DNA of 38,430 nucleotides from Rodentibacter heidelbergensis (GTDB lineage: Bacteria; Pseudomonadota; Gammaproteobacteria; Enterobacterales; Pasteurellaceae). Positions 1 to 32,089 of this stretch are shown in pieces (position 1 is the stretch's first letter; every line of letters starts with the position of its first letter). Under the pieces are notes generated by a model that searched no databases, was not told where the DNA came from, and saw only the letters and a list, made by a program, of their open reading frames with translations. Location: the NCBI RefSeq assembly GCF_002000125.1, contig NZ_MLHH01000022.1, positions 1 through 38,430 of the forward strand, read 5' to 3'. The position numbers and the translations under genes are program-made.

Positions 1-757
1 CAACACCGGTTTGCAGATCAGCTTTTTCTTGGTTATCCGGTAAAGCTTGGATCGCATCGTTCGCTTTCGCTTTAGCGGCTTCTACGGCTTCTTTTAATCC
101 TTGAAGCTTATTCGCCTCTTCCTTGCTAATCACACCATCTTTTTGGGCTGCTTCAAATGCTTTTTTATAGGCTTCGGCAGCTTTTTCTGCAGCAGCTACC
201 GCCTCTTTGGCTTTGTTTATTTCTGCTTTGTTATTTGTTTTAGATGAATTGTTATCATTCGAGGCAGATGAACCACCACTGCCACCACCACTTGCAGCAA
301 GCGCAATCCCCCCTGCTAAAGCAGAAAGACCTAATAACCACCATGGATTAAATGCCCAAAATACAGAAGTTAACTCCGTTCCACCTAATGTTTGCGGGAC
401 AATCGTTTGATCAGCAAGCAAACTAACTGCCTCAGATTGCAAACCTGACTCTGGAACATAAGCATAAATACGACCATTCTCATGCTGTCCTACTAATAGG
501 TTTGTGGTTTCACCCGTTTCATCGGTATAGTAATTTTTGATGATAATATCTTCACTCATATCACCATCATTGAAGTGAATCTTTAAATTTTTTCCATCAC
601 GCTGAGTGATAATATTATCTGGGGCAAAACCTGTTTTATCATCAATTAACTGATAATTTGATTTTGCTCTTGCCTCAATAATCAGTTGTTCAGCTTGATT
701 AATTTTGTGACTTGCCATCACTTTCTTTATGCTTAATACTTTTAGCGTTATTGACAT
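1..757 (-). CDS. Large surface adhesin with BapA-prefix-like N-terminus (partial, 3' end outside window)
   Basis: Reading frame open from an ATG at 757 to the left edge; 252 residues are visible. The start follows a good ribosome site (AAGGAG) 8-9 bases upstream. Residues 1 to about 130 resemble the prefix domain of BapA-type biofilm proteins. Next comes a hydrophobic segment beginning NPWWLLGLSALAGGIALAAS, then a Gly/Ser linker, then an Ala/Lys/Glu-rich helical region with EAVEAAKAKANDAIQALP, as found in repeat modules of type I-secreted adhesins. There is no cleavable signal peptide, which suits type I secretion by a C-terminal signal. Surface attachment or biofilm formation is inferred. 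Total length, repeats and secretion signal lie outside the window. Confidence 0.8.
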   Translation of the reverse strand, partial: MSITLKVLSIKKVMASHKINQAEQLIIEARAKSNYQLIDDKTGFAPDNIITQRDGKNLKIHFNDGDMSEDIIIKNYYTDETGETTNLLVGQHENGRIYAYVPESGLQSEAVSLLADQTIVPQTLGGTELTSVFWAFNPWWLLGLSALAGGIALAASGGGSGGSSASNDNNSSKTNNKAEINKAKEAVAAAEKAAEAYKKAFEAAQKDGVISKEEANKLQGLKEAVEAAKAKANDAIQALPDNQEKADLQTGV

Positions 758-3642: not shown

Positions 3643-4922
3643 TGGATAATTCACAACTTAATGTGGCAATGAACGGGATTTTAGTGGGGAAATGGCGACG
3701 TTTAAAAAATGGTGCTATGGAATTCCAGTATGATGAAAAATGGCTCTCCTTCTCCCGTTCACGCCCTATTTCTCTTTCACTTCCCCTTTCAACGAAAGTT
3801 TATCGTGGTGATGAAGTCTATAATTTCTTTGATAATTTACTCCCTGATAATGAACAAATTCGTTCACGAATTCAGCAACGTTTCCAAACCAGTACGAAAA
3901 CCCCTTTTGATTTACTTTCAGCAATCGGACAAGACTGCGTAGGAGCAATTCAACTTTATCAGCATAATACACATATCGTAAAAACAGTTTATGCTGAACC
4001 ACTCTCAGCGCAAGACATTGAAAACACGCTAAAAAACTACCGCACTTTTCCACTCGGTATGGCGCAACAAGAAGATTTTCGAATTTCAATTGCAGGGGCA
4101 CAGGAAAAAACCGCATTACTCTACTATGATGGACAATGGAGGCGGCCATTGCACACCACCCCAACCAGCCATATCTTTAAACTACCAATTGGCATAGTAG
4201 GGCAAGGTCAGATGGATCTCTCAAACAGCTGTGAAAACGAGTGGCTTTGCTTGCAAATTATGAAACAACTCGGGCTCAATGTTCCTTTCGCTTGTATTGA
4301 ACATTTTGGTGAAATGAAAGCGTTGATTATTGAACGTTTTGATCGCCGTTGGTCTGAAAACAAAAAATGGCTCATTCGTTTGCCACAAGAAGATATGTGT
4401 CAAGCACTCAATATTGCGCCTGCCAGAAAATACGAATCAGACGGGGGGCCCGGTATTTTATCCATTATGAAATTATTAAATGGTTCGGCAAACCCAAATG
4501 ACGATCGAAAACAATTTTTTAAAGCCCAGATCATATTTTGGTTACTTTGTGCTATTGATGGACATGCCAAAAATTTCAGTCTATTTTTAGAACCACAAGG
4601 ACATTATCGCTTAACCCCTTTTTATGATGTGATTTCAGCCTATCCGCTCATTAAATCAAATAGCTTAGCAAAACAAAAAGTAAAAATGGCGATGGCGTGG
4701 CACGGTGAAAATAAGCACTATTTGTGGGATAAAATTAAGTTACGACATATCTTTACAACAGCGAAATTAGCAGGCTTATCGCAAACCACCGTTGAAGAAA
4801 TTTTACACGAAATAACCAATGGCTTACCAAAAGTTGAGAAAATCAATGTAAGCCATTTACCTAACGAGATTAGCGAACCTATTTTGGATGGTTTAAGAAA
4901 ACAGGCAAAGGAAATTCAATAA
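3642..4922 (+). CDS. hipA: HipA serine/threonine kinase toxin
   Basis: 426 residues from the ATG at 3642 (an in-frame TTG at 3636 lies inside hipB), against 440 in E. coli. Seen: the Gly-rich loop SIAGAQEKTA (149-158), with the Ser that is autophosphorylated in E. coli (S150); FDRRW; LPQEDMCQ; SDGGPG; the catalytic loop IDGHAKNFS near residue 305; and YRLTPFYDV with the metal-binding Asp. In E. coli HipA phosphorylates glutamyl-tRNA synthetase and induces persistence; here all key motifs look intact. A Haemophilus-type uptake sequence lies in the gene (4039-4047), suggesting long residence in or exchange among Pasteurellaceae. Confidence 0.93.
   Translation: MDNSQLNVAMNGILVGKWRRLKNGAMEFQYDEKWLSFSRSRPISLSLPLSTKVYRGDEVYNFFDNLLPDNEQIRSRIQQRFQTSTKTPFDLLSAIGQDCVGAIQLYQHNTHIVKTVYAEPLSAQDIENTLKNYRTFPLGMAQQEDFRISIAGAQEKTALLYYDGQWRRPLHTTPTSHIFKLPIGIVGQGQMDLSNSCENEWLCLQIMKQLGLNVPFACIEHFGEMKALIIERFDRRWSENKKWLIRLPQEDMCQALNIAPARKYESDGGPGILSIMKLLNGSANPNDDRKQFFKAQIIFWLLCAIDGHAKNFSLFLEPQGHYRLTPFYDVISAYPLIKSNSLAKQKVKMAMAWHGENKHYLWDKIKLRHIFTTAKLAGLSQTTVEEILHEITNGLPKVEKINVSHLPNEISEPILDGLRKQAKEIQ
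4039..4047 (-). repeat. Haemophilus-type uptake sequence inside hipA
   Basis: ACCGCACTT, the exact complement of AAGTGCGGT. Another 16 exact copies were found by eye across the window (listed in the findings). Confidence 0.9.
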
Positions 4923-7627: not shown

Positions 7628-8629
7628 ATGCAACACAACCACTTATTAGAACAACTTTACAACGGTTGCCAACTCAGTCAATCAGAAAGCACCACACTTT
7701 TTAACGCTGTCATTCAAGGCAAGCTCTCTAACGAACAAATCGCAGCGATGTTGATTGCATTAAAATTGCGTGGTGCGAACATTGAGGAAATAAGCGGAGC
7801 GGTGGCCGCTTCTCTACAAAATGCCAATGCTTTTCCTCGACCTGATTATCCTTTTGCCGATATTGTCGGTACGGGAGGCGATGGCCAAAACACCATTAAT
7901 ATCTCAACAGCAAGTTGTATTGTGGCAGCAACAATGGGTGCCAAAGTGTCTAAACACGGTAATCGCAGTGTATCTAGCCAATCCGGAGCAAGTGATGTAT
8001 TAACTGCATTAGGCGTTAATATCAATATTTCTGCTCAATCTGCACGTCAAGCACTCGACGAGATTGGGGTTTGTTTTTTATTTGCCCAGCAATATCACCC
8101 CGGCTTTCGCTATGTTGCGCCTATCCGTGCGGCATTAAAAACCCGCACAATATTTAATATTCTCGGCCCACTCATTAACCCTGCCCGACCGAATTACCAC
8201 TTACTGGGTGTTTATACCCCTGAGCTTGTAAAAACCTATGCAGAAACCGCTGTGAGTTTAGGACATGAACATACTTTTATTGTTCATGGTGCCGGTTTAG
8301 ATGAAGTAGCGTTACATGGTGATACCCAAGTGGCCGAGGTAAACAAGGGAAAAATTGACTATTTCACCCTAACCCCTGCTGATTTTGGATTGAAAAATCA
8401 ATCCCTTGAAAGTCTACGAGGCGGCGCCCCACAAGAAAATGCCAAAATATTGACCGCACTTTTACAAGGGAAAGGAAAAGCGGAACACGCCAATGCCGTT
8501 GCCGTCAATACGGCGTTATTACTCAAATTATTCGGCTATGAAAATCTTAAGCAAAATACGCAAAATGTCTTGGAAACCTTAGCCACCGGCAAAGCATTTG
8601 AAACCTTGCAAAAATTAACGCAATATTAA
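7628..8629 (+). CDS. trpD: Anthranilate phosphoribosyltransferase
   Basis: 333 residues, the normal length. It transfers phosphoribose from PRPP to anthranilate. Seen: [20 protein letters not shown] (PRPP-binding loop, near residue 80), [42 protein letters not shown], and [18 protein letters not shown] with the anthranilate-site residues. The start follows AAGGAACAG. An uptake sequence lies near the 3' end (8453-8461). The operon continues into trpCF after 40 bp. Confidence 0.97.
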
Positions 8630-24024: not shown

Positions 24025-25572
24025 ATGGTTTCAATTCAACAACGAGCCGAACTTCAACGCAGAATTTGGCAAATCGCCAATGATGTACGAGGTTCAGTCG
24101 ATGGCTGGGATTTTAAACAATATGTACTAGGCACATTATTTTATCGTTTTATCAGTGAAAATTTTACCAATTATATTGAAGCAGGCGATGAAAGTATAAA
24201 CTATGCAGAGTTGCCTGATGATGTAATTACGGCTGAAATTAAAACAGATGCAATAAAAACTAAAGGCTACTTCATTTATCCAAGTCAACTTTTTAAAAAT
24301 GTAGTTGCTAATGCAGCTAGCAATCCTGATCTCAATACCAATTTAAAACAAATTTTTACAGATATTGAAAGCTCAGCTACAGGATTCCCTTCGGAGGATG
24401 ATATCAAAGGGTTGTTTGCTGATTTTGACACAACAAGTAATCGTCTAGGTAACACTGTTAAAGATAAAAATGACCGCTTAACTGCCGTATTAAAAGGGGT
24501 TGCCGAACTGGATTTTGGTAAATTTGAAGACAATCATATTGACTTATTTGGTGATGCCTACGAATATCTCATTTCTAACTATGCCGCCAATGCAGGTAAA
24601 TCAGGTGGAGAATTTTTCACCCCACAAAACGTTTCAAAACTTATCGCCAAACTTGCCTTACACGGGCAAGACAAAGTGAATAAAATCTATGACCCCGCTG
24701 CAGGTTCAGGCTCCTTGCTTCTACAAGCAAAAAAACAATTTGATGAGCACATTATTGAAGATGGCTTTTTCGGGCAGGAAATTAATCACACCACTTATAA
24801 TCTTGCTCGTATGAATATGTTTTTACATAACATCAACTACGACAAGTTTGATATTGCTTTAGGTAACACCTTGCTTAAACCACAGTTTGGTGATGACAAA
24901 CCTTTTGATGCCATCGTTTCTAACCCACCTTATTCGGTTAAATGGATTGGCTCAGACGATCCAACTCTTATTAACGACGAACGTTTCGCACCGGCAGGCG
25001 TACTTGCACCAAAATCGAAAGCCGATTTTGCTTTTATTTTGCACGCATTAAGTTATCTTTCAGCAAAAGGCAGAGCGGCAATTGTCTCATTCCCAGGAAT
25101 TTTTTATCGTGGCGGTGCCGAGCAAAAAATCCGTCAATATCTAGTCGATAACAATTTTGTGGAAACCGTTATTGCTCTTGCTCCTAATTTATTTTTCGGC
25201 ACCAGCATTGCGGTGAATATTTTGGTACTTTCCAAACACAAAACCGACACGCAAACACAATTTATCGATGCAAGTAGTCTTTTTAAATCCGTTACCAATA
25301 ACAACATTCTAGAAGACGAACATATTGAACAAATCCTAAAATTGTTCGCCGATAAAGAAGACGTTCCCCATTTAGCAAAATCCGTTAGCAATGATGAAAT
25401 AGCAAATGATAAGAATAATTACAATCTTTCTGTCAGTTCTTATGTAGAACAAAAAGACACTCGCGAAATAATCAACATTGATGAATTAAACGAAGAAATT
25501 CGTAAAACCGTCGCCAATATTGACCGCTTGCGTGCCGAGATTGATAAAATTATGGCGGAGATTGAGGGATAA
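24025..25572 (+). CDS. hsdM: Type I restriction-modification methyltransferase subunit (type IC)
   Basis: 515 residues, the size of EcoR124I HsdM (520). After a helical N-terminal domain comes [17 protein letters not shown] (194-210), S-adenosylmethionine motif [12 protein letters not shown] (223-233), and the N6-adenine catalytic motif IV NPPY (300-303). The C-terminus ([25 protein letters not shown]) is a coiled coil. With HsdS it methylates adenine in both half-sites. AAGGGA precedes the start. It is the first gene of the hsdM-hsdS-prrC-rhuM-hsdR operon, which is tightly packed throughout. Confidence 0.96.
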
Positions 25573-25579
25573 AAACACC

Positions 25580-26812
25580 ATGAAAAACAACCGCACTTTT
25601 TTAGATAAATTATTAGATGGGGCTGAGGTTGAGTGGAGAACACTTGATGAAATCTCTTCAATCTACGGTGGACTAACTGGGAAAAATAAATCTGACTTTG
25701 AAAATGGAAATGTATTCTATGTTCCTTATAAGAACATCTTTAACAATATAGAAGTTGATTTTGATAATCTTGAATTAGTCAATGTATCAGATGATGAAAA
25801 GCAATATGAAATCCAATATGGAGATGTTTTATTTACTGGTTCTTCTGAAACAGCTGAAGAAGCAGGAATGTCTTCTGCAGTAACAACAAAAATAAATCAA
25901 AAAATCTATCTGAATAGTTTTTCATTTGGGCTTAGATTTAATGATGATATAAAAATATTGCCTGAATTTTCAAAATTTTTATTTAGAACTCACTCTATAA
26001 GAACTGAAATAGCAAAATCGGCAAGTGGAGTAACGAGATTCAATATTTCTAAAGCTCGTTTTAAGAAAATTAAAATCCCCATCCCCCCGCTCTCCGTCCA
26101 AACCGAAATCGTGCGAATTTTGGACGCATTGACAGCGCTTACCAGCGAGCTTACCAGCGAGCTTACCAGCGAGCTTATACTACGCCAGAAGCAATATGAA
26201 TACTATCGAGAAAAATTATTATCTTTTGATAGTTTAGAGCGATTGAATAAGGGGGGGGTGAAGAAGAAACTTATTGATGTTTCTGATATTCAATGGCTAC
26301 CTCTAAATAAAATATATAAATTTCAATATGGCGTAGGTAATAAAATACCGACTATTGGAGGGAAATATCCTGTTTATGGAAGTAATGGAATTGTGGGTAC
26401 CCATAATGAATATAACAGTGAAAACTCACCTGTCATTGGACATATAGGCGCCTATGCAGGAATAGTAAATTGGGCTGAGGGTAAACATTTTGTAACCTAT
26501 AATGGCATTATTTGCAAAAAAATTAATGATAATGTAAATGAACGGTATGCATACCATCTTCTACTCTTGCAAAACTTTATTGATAAAGCTAATAAAGCAT
26601 CACAGCCATTTATATCTTACGATATTTTAAATAAATGCATTGTTCCTATCCCCTCACTCGAAGAACAAAACCGCATAGTTTCAATCTTAGACAAATTTGA
26701 AACTTTAACCAATTCCATCACCGAAGGCTTGCCTTTAGCGATCGAACAAAGCCAAAAGCGGTATGAGTATTACAGAGAGCTTCTGCTAAGCTTTCCAAAG
26801 TTAGATAATTAA
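25580..26812 (+). CDS. hsdS: Type I restriction-modification specificity subunit with two repeat tracts
   Basis: 410 residues from the ATG at 25580; an in-frame TTG at 25520 lies inside hsdM. The layout is TRD1 (about 15-170), a central conserved region (PPLSVQTEIVRILDALTALT, then RQKQYEYYREKLLSF), TRD2 (about 233-365), and a second conserved region (PSLEEQNRIVSILDKFETL, then SQKRYEYYRELLLSFPK). The TSEL motif is repeated three times at residues 188-199, and a G8 tract encodes Lys224-Gly-Gly-Val. It sets target sequence for methylation and cleavage. Unusually for a foreign-looking gene, it carries an uptake sequence in its first codons (25590-25598). Confidence 0.95.
   Translation: MKNNRTFLDKLLDGAEVEWRTLDEISSIYGGLTGKNKSDFENGNVFYVPYKNIFNNIEVDFDNLELVNVSDDEKQYEIQYGDVLFTGSSETAEEAGMSSAVTTKINQKIYLNSFSFGLRFNDDIKILPEFSKFLFRTHSIRTEIAKSASGVTRFNISKARFKKIKIPIPPLSVQTEIVRILDALTALTSELTSELTSELILRQKQYEYYREKLLSFDSLERLNKGGVKKKLIDVSDIQWLPLNKIYKFQYGVGNKIPTIGGKYPVYGSNGIVGTHNEYNSENSPVIGHIGAYAGIVNWAEGKHFVTYNGIICKKINDNVNERYAYHLLLLQNFIDKANKASQPFISYDILNKCIVPIPSLEEQNRIVSILDKFETLTNSITEGLPLAIEQSQKRYEYYRELLLSFPKLDN
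26138..26173 (+). repeat. Three tandem 12-bp repeats in hsdS (TSEL)
   Basis: CTTACCAGCGAG three times in perfect tandem (26138-26149, 26150-26161, 26162-26173), then a partial fourth (CTTA). Each unit adds Leu-Thr-Ser-Glu and keeps frame. It sits in the spacer helix, where EcoR124I and its variant differ by two or three TAEL units. Confidence 0.95.
26251..26258 (+). repeat. G8 homopolymer in hsdS
   Basis: Eight G after AATAA. With eight the frame runs on into TRD2. With seven it reads AAG GGG GGG TGA and stops at once; with nine it stops seven codons after the tract. Both give an S protein of about 226-232 residues. Confidence 0.93.
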
Positions 26813-26813
26813 T

Positions 26814-27938
26814 ATGAACCAACAATTAAACGATATTGCTCAAGCGTTAAAAAGCACCAATAAAAAAGTTCAACTGATCTACGCCTTTAACGGGACAGGC
26901 AAAACCAGATTATCAAAAGAATTCAAAGAATTGATTTCACCGAAAAATAATGAAAATGAAGAATTATCAAGAAAGAAAATTCTTTATTTTAATGCTTTTA
27001 CGGAGGACTTATTTTACTGGGATAATGATTCGGAACCAAAACTGAAGATCCAGCCAAATTCTTTTATTAATTGGTTGATTGAAGATCAAGGGGATGAAGA
27101 TAAAATAATTAGTAAATTTCATCATTATTGTGATGAAAAACTTATGCCTAAATTTGATATTAAAAATAACCAAATCACATTTAGTTTTGCGCGCGGAAAT
27201 GATGAACCTGAAGATAATATTAAACTTTCAAAAGGTGAAGAAAGCAATTTTATCTGGAGTATTTTTCATACATTTATTGAGCAAGCTATATCAGAACTCA
27301 ATATTCCTGAAGCGGATGAACGTTCAACAGATAAATTTGATGAGCTAGAATATATTTTTATTGACGATCCAGTAAGTTCATTAGATGAAAATCACCTCAT
27401 TCAGTTAGCTGTAGATTTGGCAAAACTTATTAAAGATACCCAATCTGAAATTAAATTTATCATTACCACTCATAATCCTTTATTTTATAACGTGTTATAT
27501 AATGAAATTGGAAATAAAGCGTGTTACATGCTGAGAAGAAACGAAGATGAGACATTTAAGCTTGAAGAGAAAAATGGTAGTTCCAACAAGAGTTTCTCTT
27601 ATCACCTCTTTCTGAAAAAACTATTGGAAGATATTGAAGCTAAGGATATTCAAAAATACCACTTTATGTTGTTACGTAACTTATATGAAAAAACAGCGAA
27701 TTTTCTTGGTTACGATGGCTGGTCAAATTTATTACCTAATGATGATGCCAAACAAAACTATTACACCCGTATTATTAATTTTACCAGCCACTCTACTTTG
27801 TCTAATGAGGTGATCTCTGAACCCACAGATGCTGAAAAAAATATTATTAAATATTTACTTGCACATCTAATTAAGAATTACGGTTTCTATATAGAAAAAA
27901 ATATTGAAGAATCACAAATTGATAATACAGCAGAGTAA
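26814..27938 (+). CDS. prrC: PrrC anticodon nuclease
   Basis: 374 residues (E. coli PrrC 396). The N-terminal ABC-type ATPase has Walker A YAFNGTGKTRLS (23-34), signature LSKGEESNF (138-146), Walker B YIFIDDPVSSLD (180-191) and switch His220 (FIITTHNPLF). The C-terminal nuclease domain has LRNLYEKTANFLG and INFTSHSTLSNE, placing the Arg288-Glu292-His326 triad, equivalent to Arg320-Glu324-His356 of E. coli PrrC. PrrC cleaves tRNA-Lys at the anticodon when a phage disables the associated type I enzyme. It starts 2 bases after hsdS. Somewhat shorter at the N-terminus; no damage seen. Confidence 0.93.
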   Translation: MNQQLNDIAQALKSTNKKVQLIYAFNGTGKTRLSKEFKELISPKNNENEELSRKKILYFNAFTEDLFYWDNDSEPKLKIQPNSFINWLIEDQGDEDKIISKFHHYCDEKLMPKFDIKNNQITFSFARGNDEPEDNIKLSKGEESNFIWSIFHTFIEQAISELNIPEADERSTDKFDELEYIFIDDPVSSLDENHLIQLAVDLAKLIKDTQSEIKFIITTHNPLFYNVLYNEIGNKACYMLRRNEDETFKLEEKNGSSNKSFSYHLFLKKLLEDIEAKDIQKYHFMLLRNLYEKTANFLGYDGWSNLLPNDDAKQNYYTRIINFTSHSTLSNEVISEPTDAEKNIIKYLLAHLIKNYGFYIEKNIEESQIDNTAE

Positions 27939-27942
27939 AAAT

Positions 27943-28932
27943 ATGAATGACTTAATCATCTACAACACCGATGACGGAAAATCTCACGTTGCTTTATTAG
28001 TTGTCGAAAATGAGGCTTGGTTGAGCCAAAATCAGCTTGCAGAACTTTTCGACACCTCTGTACAAAATATAGCCACTCATATAAAAAATATATTAGAAGA
28101 CAATGAATTAGACAAAAATTCAGTTATCAAGGATTACTTGATAACTGCCCAAGATGGTAAACAATATCAAGTAAAACATTATTCCCTTGATATGATTCTG
28201 GCAATCGGATTTCGTGTGCGTAGCCCACGTGGTGTACAGTTTCGTCGCTGGGCGAATACACAATTACGTACTTATCTAGATAAAGGTTTTCTATTAGATA
28301 AAGAACGATTGAAAAACCCGCAAGGTCGATTTGACCATTTTGATGAATTACTGGAACAAATTCGTGAAATTCGAGTCAGTGAGTTGCGGTTTTATCAAAA
28401 AGTACGGGAATTATTTAAATTATCCAGTGACTACGATAAAACGGACAAGGTCACTCAAATGTTTTTTGCCGAAACACAAAATAAGTTGATCTATGCTATT
28501 ACACAACAAACTGCAGCAGAACTCATTTGTATGCGTGCCAATGCCGAATTACCTAATATGGGTCTAACCTCTTGGAAAGGTACTGTTGTGCGTAAAGGCG
28601 ATATTATTACCGCTAAAAACTATTTGACTCATGATGAATTAGATTCTTTGAATCGTTTAGTGATGATCTTTTTAGAAAGTGCCGAATTACGTGTTAAAAA
28701 CCGTCAAGATCTGACATTAAATTTCTGGCGTAATAATGTAGATAATTTAATTGAATTTAATGGTTTTCCGCTACTCATCAGAAATGGAACCCGAACTGTG
28801 AAACAAATGGAAGCCTTTACCAAAGAACAATATGCCTTATTTGATCAAACCAGAAAACAGCACAAACGTATACAAGCAGATAGTGAAGATTTACAAATTT
28901 TAGAAAAATGGCAAAAAGATCTGAAAAAGTAA
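27943..28932 (+). CDS. RhuM-family protein
   Basis: 329 residues from the ATG at 27943. An upstream in-frame start at 27904 lies inside prrC. The N-terminal part has a helix-turn-helix-like LSQNQLAELFDTSVQNIATH (about 28-47), then YLITAQDGKQYQVKHYSLDM and IGFRVRSPRGVQFRRWANTQ, the RhuM/KilA-N-like core. The C-terminal half is helical (LTHDELDSLNRLVMIFLES). The family (named for a Salmonella virulence-island gene) has no settled biochemical function and is often found near type I restriction genes and phage loci. It lies 4 bp after prrC and 25 bp before hsdR, so it is probably co-transcribed. Confidence 0.88.
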   Translation: MNDLIIYNTDDGKSHVALLVVENEAWLSQNQLAELFDTSVQNIATHIKNILEDNELDKNSVIKDYLITAQDGKQYQVKHYSLDMILAIGFRVRSPRGVQFRRWANTQLRTYLDKGFLLDKERLKNPQGRFDHFDELLEQIREIRVSELRFYQKVRELFKLSSDYDKTDKVTQMFFAETQNKLIYAITQQTAAELICMRANAELPNMGLTSWKGTVVRKGDIITAKNYLTHDELDSLNRLVMIFLESAELRVKNRQDLTLNFWRNNVDNLIEFNGFPLLIRNGTRTVKQMEAFTKEQYALFDQTRKQHKRIQADSEDLQILEKWQKDLKK

Positions 28933-28957: not shown

Positions 28958-31900
28958 ATGACCCAATACAAAACCATCGCCGAATCCAATAATTTTATCG
29001 TTCTGGATCAATACACAAAATGCGTGGAAGAACCACGGGCAGGCTATCAAACGGAAGATAGTTTAGAACGTGAATTTATCCGAGATTTACAAGGTCAGGG
29101 TTATCAGTATTTACCTGAAATCAATAACCACGAAAAACTACTGATAAACCTACGCCATCAGTTACAACATCTCAACAATGTTATCTTTTCTGATGCTGAA
29201 TGGACGCGATTTTTAGAAGAATATTTGGATAAACCTGCTGATAATCTCATTGATAAAACCCGTAAGATTCATGATGATTATATTTATGATTTTGTATTTG
29301 ATAACGGGCGAATTCAAAATATTTATTTGCTGGATAAGAAAAATATTACCAATAATAAATTACAAGTGATTAATCAATTTGAGCAAACCGGTAATTATGA
29401 TAATCGCTATGATGTCACTGTTTTGGTAAACGGTTTGCCCCTTGTTCATATTGAACTTAAAAAACGTGGGGTAGCCATTCGGGAAGCCTTTAATCAAATT
29501 CATCGTTATAGTAAAGAAAGTTTTAATAAAAACAATTCTCTTTTTAAATATATTCAAATTTTTGTCATTTCCAACGGCACGGACACTCGCTATTTTGCCA
29601 ATACCACCAAACGCGATAAAAACAGCTACGATTTCACAATGAATTGGGCAACGGCAAAAAATATCGCCATTCGTGATTTAAAGGATTTTACGGAGACATT
29701 TTTCCAAAAAAACACCTTATTAAAAATCTTGGTGGATTATTGTGTGTTTGATACGTCTGATACGCTACTGATTATGCGTCCTTATCAAATCGCTGCAACC
29801 GAACGGATTTTATGGAAAATTAACAGTTCTTATCAATCGAAAAAGTGGCGTAATCAAGAAAGTGGCGGTTATATTTGGCACACCACAGGTTCAGGCAAAA
29901 CCTTAACCAGTTTTAAAGCGGCTCGCCTTGCGACGGGGCTAGACTTTATTGATAAAGTGTTTTTTGTGGTGGATCGTAAAGATCTGGACTATCAAACCAT
30001 GAAAGAATATCAGCGCTTTTCACCTGACAGCGTCAATGGTTCAGAAAGCACAGCGGGGCTAAAACGCAACATTGAAAAAGAAGATAACAAAATTATTGTT
30101 ACCACCATTCAAAAACTCAATAACCTGATGAAATCAGAAGATAAGCTACCGGTTTATGATAAACAGGTAGTTTTTATTTTTGATGAATGTCATCGTTCAC
30201 AATTTGGTGAAGCACAAAAAAACTTAAAGAAAAAATTTAAAAAATTCTACCAATTTGGTTTTACCGGCACGCCAATTTTTGGCGATGATATTGTTGATGG
30301 AAAACTTATCCGTAAAGGCAACGCATTAGGCGCTGAAACCACAGAAAGTGTTTTTGGCATTCAGCTACATTCCTACATTATTACCGATGCCATTCGTGAT
30401 GAAAAAGTGCTCAAGTTTAAAGTAGATTACAATGATGTTCGTCCACAATTTAAAAGCATCGAAACGGAAAAAAATCTTGAAAAACTGACCACACTTGAAC
30501 AAAAAGCAGCTTTTTTACAGCCCAAACGCATTGAAGAAATCACACAATACATCTTGAATAATTTCAAACAAAAGACACATCGTTTTAACGCCAGTAATCA
30601 AGGCTTTAATGCGATGTTTGCAGTGAGTAGCGTGGAGGCGGCAAAATTTTATTATGAAGCGTTTAAAAAGCAACAAAGTGCGGTAGAAAATCCGCTTAAA
30701 ATTGCTACCATTTTTTCTTTTGCTGCTAATGAAGAACAAGACGCGGTAGGAGATATTGCCGATGAAAGTTTTGAAGTTGAAGCCATGAATTCGAGCGCCA
30801 AAGAATTCTTAAAATCTGCTATTGATGACTACAACAATTATTTTACAACCAACTATGGTGTAGATGGAAAATCCTTCCAAAATTATTATCGAGATTTGGC
30901 AAAACGGGTAAAAAATAAAGAAGTTGACCTGCTTATTGTTGTCGGTATGTTTTTAACCGGTTTTGATGCGCCGACACTAAACACCTTATTTGTCGATAAA
31001 AACCTACGTTATCACGGATTAATTCAAGCCTTTTCCCGCACCAATCGAATTTATAACGCCACCAAAACCTTTGGCAATATCGTTACCTTCCGCGATTTGG
31101 AACAAAACACCATTGATGCCATTACGCTTTTTGGCAACGCCAATACGCGTAACGTAGTACTGGAAAAAAGCTATCAAGAATATATGGAAGGCTATACCGA
31201 CGCGGGTATCGATCGCCGTGGCTATTTAGACGTCATTAGCGAACTCAGTGATCGTTTTCCTGATCCGACTGAAATTGAAACGGAAAAAGATAAAAAAGCC
31301 TTTGTTAAATTATTCGGTGAATATTTACGCGTTGAAAATATCCTGCAAAATTATGATGAATTTGCCGCTTTACAAGCATTTCAATCCGTTGATAAAACTG
31401 ATGAACAAGCAATACAAGCCTTTAAAGAAAAGTATTATCTCAGCGATGAAACCCTTGCTGAAATGCAAAAAATTGATATACCAAGCGAACGCTCTATTCA
31501 AAATTACCGTTCTACTTATAATGACATTCGTGATTGGCTTCGTCGGCAAAAAGATGGCGAAGAAAAAGGAAAATCAACCATTGATTGGGATGATGTAGTC
31601 TTTGAGGTGGATTTATTAAAATCCCAAGAAATCAATCTGGATTATATTTTAGAGCTAATTTTTGAGCACAATAAAAAAACCAAAGACAAAGAGACCTTGG
31701 TTGAAGAAATTCGTTCAATTATCCGCTCAAGTTTAGGAAACCGTGCCAAAGAAAGTTTGATCATTGATTTTATGCATCAAACAGATTTAGATGCTATTGC
31801 TGACAAGGCAAGTATCATTGAAGCGTTCTTTAAATTTGCTCAAACGGAGCAACAAAAAGAAGCTGATGAACTCATTGCTTCGGAAAACTTAAACATAGAA

Positions 31901-32089
31901 GCGGCTAAACGTTATATTAATGTTTCATTAAAGCGTGAATACGCCAGTGAAAATGGTACAGATTTAAACGATACTCTCCCGAAAATGAGCCCTCTTAATC
32001 CACAATATTTGACGAAAAAACAAACCATTTTCCGGAAACTTTCTGCATTTGTGGAAAAATTCAAAGGAATTGGAGGGCTTTTGTCATAA
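28958..32089 (+). CDS. hsdR: Type I restriction endonuclease subunit (type IC)
   Basis: 1043 residues, close to EcoR124I HsdR (1038). The PD-(D/E)xK nuclease has Asp152 (RYDVTV), Glu166 and Lys168 (HIELKKRG), one off the EcoR124I residues. The SF2 motor follows: Walker [12 protein letters not shown], the DEAD-like box [17 protein letters not shown] and [12 protein letters not shown] helical C-terminal domain ([20 protein letters not shown]) binds the methylase core. It translocates DNA and cuts far from unmethylated sites. AAGGAACAC precedes the start. An uptake sequence lies at 30676-30684. It is the last gene of the island. Confidence 0.96.

Follow-up and report, generated by a model that had tools for sequence, protein, structure and literature searches.

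A poly-G tract in the hsdS linker of a Type IC-like operon of Rodentibacter heidelbergensis, a probable site of specificity switching

In NgoAV, a Type IC restriction-modification system of Neisseria gonorrhoeae, the hsdS gene carries a poly-G tract past the first TRD and its helix, and a change of one base in this tract fuses or splits the gene (PMC9577141). The motif recognized by NgoAV is set both by the tract and by a LEAT repeat (PMC6789123). Half-subunits are active in EcoR124I, EcoDXXI and NgoAV, and the similarity between the two conserved helices, D1 and D2, has been offered as a possible reason for working Type IC halves (PMC3874165). In E. coli, PrrC stays latent in the restriction-modification complex until restriction is inhibited (PMC3874165). 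Furthermore, restriction-modification genes of Haemophilus parasuis contain homopolymers of five or more bases (PMC6211672), and hsdS2 of Haemophilus influenzae contains the 12-mer CTTACCAGCGAG (identical to the TSEL unit described below), one copy of which differs between paired isogenic isolates from a single patient (PMC6646836).

The DNA analyzed here (the window) is a stretch of 38,430 nucleotides from R. heidelbergensis (contig NZ_MLHH01000022.1). Its hsdS gene contains a run of eight G (26251..26258, + strand), which we consider probably to be a slipped-strand contingency site that switches Type IC specificity in the manner of NgoAV; slippage in the strain itself is what we infer. The concept of such a switch is already established in NgoAV. 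Among the literature matches listed, no paper describes a poly-G hsdS switch in Pasteurellaceae; such loci may be listed in a 2020 FASEB J survey of the repeats present in genes of Type I systems, according to which several percent of hsdS genes reportedly have them.

The hsd operon and the position of the tract

Five genes follow one another on the + strand in the order hsdM-hsdS-prrC-rhuM-hsdR, as judged from ORFs, Pfam and PADLOC. hsdM (24025..25572) encodes a methyltransferase subunit of 515 aa (Pfam N6_Mtase and HsdM_N; PADLOC MTase_I), and hsdS (25580..26812) a specificity subunit, which has 410 aa at full length with G8 (an ORF with Pfam Methylase_S and PADLOC Specificity_I). Next come prrC (26814..27938), an anticodon nuclease-like gene with an open frame of 374 aa (PADLOC PrrC, 457 bits), a rhuM family gene (27943..28932; Pfam Virulence_RhuM), whose ATG lies inside the ORF 27904-28932, and hsdR (28958..32089), encoding a restriction subunit of 1043 aa (Pfam HSDR_N and EcoR124_C). 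Whole or short matches to the rhuM family gene, which stands here between prrC and hsdR, are present in many related hsd loci.

The system is putatively assigned to Type IC (as Type IC-like) because HsdR has an EcoR124_C domain and EcoR124 is the best sequence match of HsdS among solved structures. Further features of Type IC were found as well: hsdM, hsdS and hsdR stand together, the C terminus of HsdR is of the EcoR124 type, the D1 and D2 helices of the window HsdS are similar (about 43% identity), and a TAEL-like unit is present, TSEL of D1 aligning to the TAEL stretch of EcoR124. The location of prrC inside the hsd operon is an EcoprrI-like feature.

The tract consists of exactly eight G within the codons AAT AAG GGG GGG GTG AAG. 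With G8, the computed hsdS product has 410 aa, with G7 226 aa (immediate TGA) and with G9 232 aa; larger slips give 231 aa (G6), 227 aa (G10) and again the full length (G5 and G11), the frame being kept on a change of three G. In an AlphaFold2 model of HsdS (on 40 sequences; mean pLDDT 82.8, pTM 0.63), which among solved structures most resembles S subunits, the central conserved helix D1 comprises residues 171-215 (26090..26224, + strand) and the distal conserved helix D2 residues 360-402 (26657..26785, + strand), and TRD2 has its first strand from residue 238 on. The tract corresponds to residues 224-227. The stretch that it encodes, residues 223-228, is the sole internal one of at least three residues with pLDDT below 50. 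As the tract encodes a disordered loop between D1 and TRD2, a break at this place would, according to the model, leave a whole TRD1 plus D1.

The preliminary description had placed a G8 run just past the central region of hsdS, with an immediate TGA after the loss of one G, a later stop after the gain of one, and truncated products holding TRD1 and one conserved region. The exact run and both frame outcomes were recovered, and the modeled D1 boundary puts the tract in the linker after this helix, in keeping with the proposed content of the products. That description omitted prrC in the operon and also an array in the central helix, where three 12-bp units encode TSEL (26141..26176, + strand). 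Relatives with TSEL-type units have 1 to 10 of them; ten units stand in the central helix of an S gene of Haemophilus haemolyticus (L090), versus 1 to 4 in the others.

These data are consistent with the following mechanism. At G8, the single chain TRD1-D1-TRD2-D2 would read an asymmetric two-part target. A slip by one or two bases would end the chain just past D1, giving TRD1 plus D1 with 226-232 residues. Two such halves could then pair via D1, and their target would be a palindrome built from the TRD1 half-site. If EcoDXXI is a guide, the gap would change from N7 to N8 with three TSEL units. The spacer would also be altered, independently of the tract, whenever a 12-bp TSEL unit is gained or lost. 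The target, and with it the methylome, would thus differ between the states, and effects on gene expression, as in a phasevarion, may follow.

Linker tracts in related hsdS genes

Of 140 genomes of the family searched with the central region, 50 gave a match, counting that of the window; stretches were taken from the other 49. A central-distal helix pair was found in 47 of the 50 loci (46 relatives and the window), giving 47 hsdS genes; L114, L118 and L119 were left out for want of such a pair, and if a locus had several pairs, the first was used for the linker count. In these genes (57,249 bp), 18 of the 20 G/C runs of at least 7 fall within a 60-nt linker past the central helix, that is, within about 5% of the length, with linker limits that were fixed only once the run positions had been seen. 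The two runs outside lie at +48 nt, just beyond the limits (L087), and at +300 nt (L080), and G6 runs (L099, L100, L107) are not part of the 18. Across the loci as a whole (561,992 bp), there are only 21 G/C runs of at least 7. A repeat scan of the relatives revealed a single A8 in hsdM (L115) and nothing in hsdR.

The tract length in the 18 genes is 7 (two genes), 8 (seven), 9 (five), 10 (two), 13 (one) or 20 (one). At least four kinds of linker are involved, with the sequences FDSLE-LN/KKKLID, SLELS/QWIKLID (a stretch), PQDLDR/YNE and GELI/NQCEW before/after the tract. Eleven of the genes are full-length and seven are split. Named relatives with a full-length gene include Haemophilus haemolyticus M19501 with G10, H. 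parainfluenzae C2004002729 with G8, H. quentini K068 with G13, H. aegyptius NCTC8502 with G20 and Aggregatibacter kilianii PN_528 with G8; a split gene is seen in H. haemolyticus M19187 with G8, H. seminalis SZY H1 with G8 and A. segnis ATCC 33393 with G9.

This distribution bears on the chief rival explanation, a plain ON/OFF switch, in which the tract slips, the half is inactive or unstable, and methylation and restriction cease until the frame is restored. The majority of the known repeat-switched methyltransferases do work as ON/OFF switches (PMC7394358), 43 of 92 gonococcal ngoAV-like loci were judged to be without active enzyme (PMC9577141), and full-length tract genes outnumber split ones here (11 versus 7). 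An off switch would be possible at any early site of hsdM or hsdS, but 18 of the 20 runs are in the linker, sparing TRD1 and D1. Besides, truncated halves of comparable Type IC enzymes are active (PMC3874165), which bears out for those enzymes the earlier statement that half-size HsdS proteins can form working subunits. The location of the tracts thus disfavors the ON/OFF switch, and we regard it as unlikely.

The integrity of the operon was checked in 21 loci with a run of at least 6. hsdM has no stop or shift where it is covered (in 5 of the 21 loci it is cut by the end of the stretch). An open hsdR is present in 17 of the 21; of the other four, L076, L090 and L107 have a stop in this gene, and in L088 it is frameshifted. 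In view of these four broken genes, some of these systems may be decaying. Among the seven split loci with at least 7 G, hsdR is open in six. prrC is present in six of the 21 loci, three of which are split (L079, L109 and L111).

Outside the family, 3 of 68 further S genes (from the best 80 loci) have linker G runs of at least 7. Campylobacter concisus H32O-S2 and Neisseria wadsworthii 9715 both have G9 and a full-length gene, and in a Cellvibrionales MAG long G runs flank an assembly gap in the linker. The six runs elsewhere in these 68 genes are C runs. Genomes of the class (368) and of the phylum (398) were scanned for helix codons with G8 behind them, in two codon spellings. Matches were obtained in 10 class and 2 phylum genomes, the window's own being in the phylum set, a rate similar to that of the reversed control, for which 5 and 3 genomes were listed. 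Among the 9 of 14 scan loci that were translated, no further hsdS was found, and the sole HsdS was that of the window (L213); L202, L203, L205, L208 and L210, which gave no match in a simpler repeat search, stood outside this reading. Note that the scans can miss further hsdS genes, as they used only two codon spellings.

Repeats of other kinds were seen close to S genes. In L098 (G030), a full-length S gene is connected with a third TRD unit through a 95-nt (GCAAC) array at oriented position 3834; a slip of this pentanucleotide could add or remove a TRD, in an arrangement distinct from the linker G tracts. In L085 (Haemophilus aegyptius NCTC8502), a 77-nt array of the 7-bp unit ATTATGA is located downstream of hsdS (oriented position 8005). 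AGAGT repeats past the apparent distal helix of a full S gene precede a further S-like frame in L167 (Streptococcus oralis) and L173 (S. parasanguinis).

Length and state of the tract in related genes

Genes were regarded as flank-matched if the 5 nt before and the 6 nt after the tract were identical. The set AATAT/CGAAGA includes two full genes, both G8, and a split gene with G9; CTATC/TAGTCC a full gene with G20 and a split one with G7; AGATA/TATAAC a full gene with G8 and a split one with G9. The genes of the AATTC/AAGAAG set (G10, G10 and G13) are all full. Both length and state differ therefore in three flank-matched sets, although related genes are non-independent events and a homopolymer that differs by a single base may be an assembly error where the genome is a draft. 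L101 and L110, which match each other at 98% in TRD1 and 100% in TRD2, have G8 and G5, respectively, and are both full. Only three of the seven split genes have a flank-matched full counterpart with a different G number, which we count against the switch. As to the other four split genes, L111 has G9 like its relative L117, from which a neighboring A sets it apart, L088 has an interrupted run, and L074 and L083 have other flanks. All seven split genes have one or more TRDs in common with a full-length gene, the best match being at 91-100%, so the same half occurs both fused and free. Judged by these sequences, the tract appears to vary between related species at a place that would yield half-subunits, as in gonococcal NgoAV. 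The variation in tract length foreseen in the preliminary description was hence found between related species, with fused and split genes on identical flanks, in a comparison in which this species was represented by one genome.

A second rival explanation is that the run is inert: G8 would have arisen by chance in a glycine-tolerant linker, slips would be rare, and the differences between genomes would be slow indels or sequencing errors. G7 runs are unremarkable across the window (5 overlapping matches versus 2.07 expected; at least 5 in 6 of 100 shuffles). In hsdS, shuffling of the codon order produced a run of at least 8 in 115 of 20,000 cases, and synonymous resampling in 74 of 20,000. The whole genome (2,031,496 bases) contains six distinct G/C runs of at least 8 (10 overlapping matches), and three of the five others are located inside housekeeping-type ORFs (thioesterase, AMP-binding and TsaD domains). 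The G8 run alone is hence weak evidence, and the three runs speak against the switch and for inertness. The latter is also favored by GGG being no rare codon (37 of the 228 codons for glycine in 13 genes of the window) and by the homopolymer errors of draft genomes. The departure from chance lies in the runs recurring at one place in hsdS of relatives. Recurrence in at least four linker types with lengths up to G20, split and full states on identical flanks, and the frequent extension of the run beyond the glycine codons, through a G at the end or start of adjoining codons, all argue against an inert run, which we find improbable.

Homopolymers can in general slip. Slippage of RNA polymerase or ribosome on the G run, by which every cell would make full and half products together with no genetic switch, is compatible with G8 alone, but the genetic length differences between relatives already explain both states, and we give this explanation very little chance.

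Two runs upstream of other genes may be mentioned here. An ORF on the - strand of the window (2-757), which runs off the contig and looks by eye like a large surface protein, has a C9 run (1167-1175; G9 on the strand of the ORF) ~410 nt upstream of its start; the run could be a promoter tract. In L037, G11 at 1501-1511 (G000:C33:100342-100352) is found roughly 130 nt upstream of an ORF, perhaps for an adhesin, which has weak coiled-coil Pfam matches only.

Switching of Type IC specificity by slippage of the G tract is thus the interpretation that we prefer, and the reading given in the preliminary description is largely plausible and partly supported. A wider proposal is possible but doubtful in our view. 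It holds that the tract in the linker evolved repeatedly as a means of splitting the subunit and is no off switch. Together with the TSEL array, one gene would then read the asymmetric target at several spacers, the TRD1 palindrome, and also a TRD2 palindrome if translation restarts within the tract, while the half-subunit would keep PrrC silent. A candidate for such a restart of the TRD2 half is the GTG codon that begins with the last G of the tract (26258..26260, + strand). Its anti-SD pairing is -11.8 kcal/mol versus -6.1 kcal/mol for hsdS, with a short spacing; in the five split tract loci scored, the first in-frame start is +29 to +38 nt away and no start is shared. Restart at this GTG is a conjecture. 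If a half-subunit still silenced the nuclease in operons with prrC, specificity could switch without loss of the guard.

Comparison with known systems

The Haemophilus influenzae systems with hsdM3 and hsdS2 are also of Type I and from the same bacterial family, and hsdS2 shares the 12-mer with the window gene. Unlike the window, hsdM3 is switched ON/OFF by a pentanucleotide, and the excerpts of PMC6646836 make no mention of poly-G in hsdS. EcoprrI (the prr locus of E. coli) resembles the window in having prrC embedded in a Type IC operon (PMC3874165); it differs in that in the window rhuM follows prrC, and poly-G in EcoprrI hsdS is not mentioned in the excerpts of PMC3874165. The operon with prrC is a setting in which one can ask whether a half-subunit keeps the nuclease silent.

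EcoR124I and EcoDXXI are close to the window system as well: among solved S chains, none matches the window HsdS better in sequence than EcoR124, and TSEL (three units in the window) sits where EcoR124 has TAEL. The truncated forms of EcoR124I and EcoDXXI act on palindromes (PMC3874165). In contrast to the window tract, these truncations are mutants (one caused by Tn5) and no sites of repeat slippage. The natural genes found here, which share TRDs in fused and split form, are material for methylome tests. They also raise the testable question of whether repeats at this position are selected for a change of specificity rather than for loss of methylation.

The parallel with NgoAV, already drawn in the preliminary description, is supported: the tract type and its place are the same (PMC9577141, PMC6789123). 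In both systems a G tract follows TRD1-D1 and its length sets whether the frame is fused or split, and a short helix repeat varies (LEAT in NgoAV, TSEL in the window and relatives). The differences are that the gene of N. gonorrhoeae FA1090 is usually split with an inactive hsdS2, whereas the window gene is fused at G8 with a second half open to the end, and that the window operon also contains prrC and rhuM. If the tract acts as we propose, the switch characterized in one gonococcal system would extend to Pasteurellaceae, with the position of the repeat being kept and not merely its presence.
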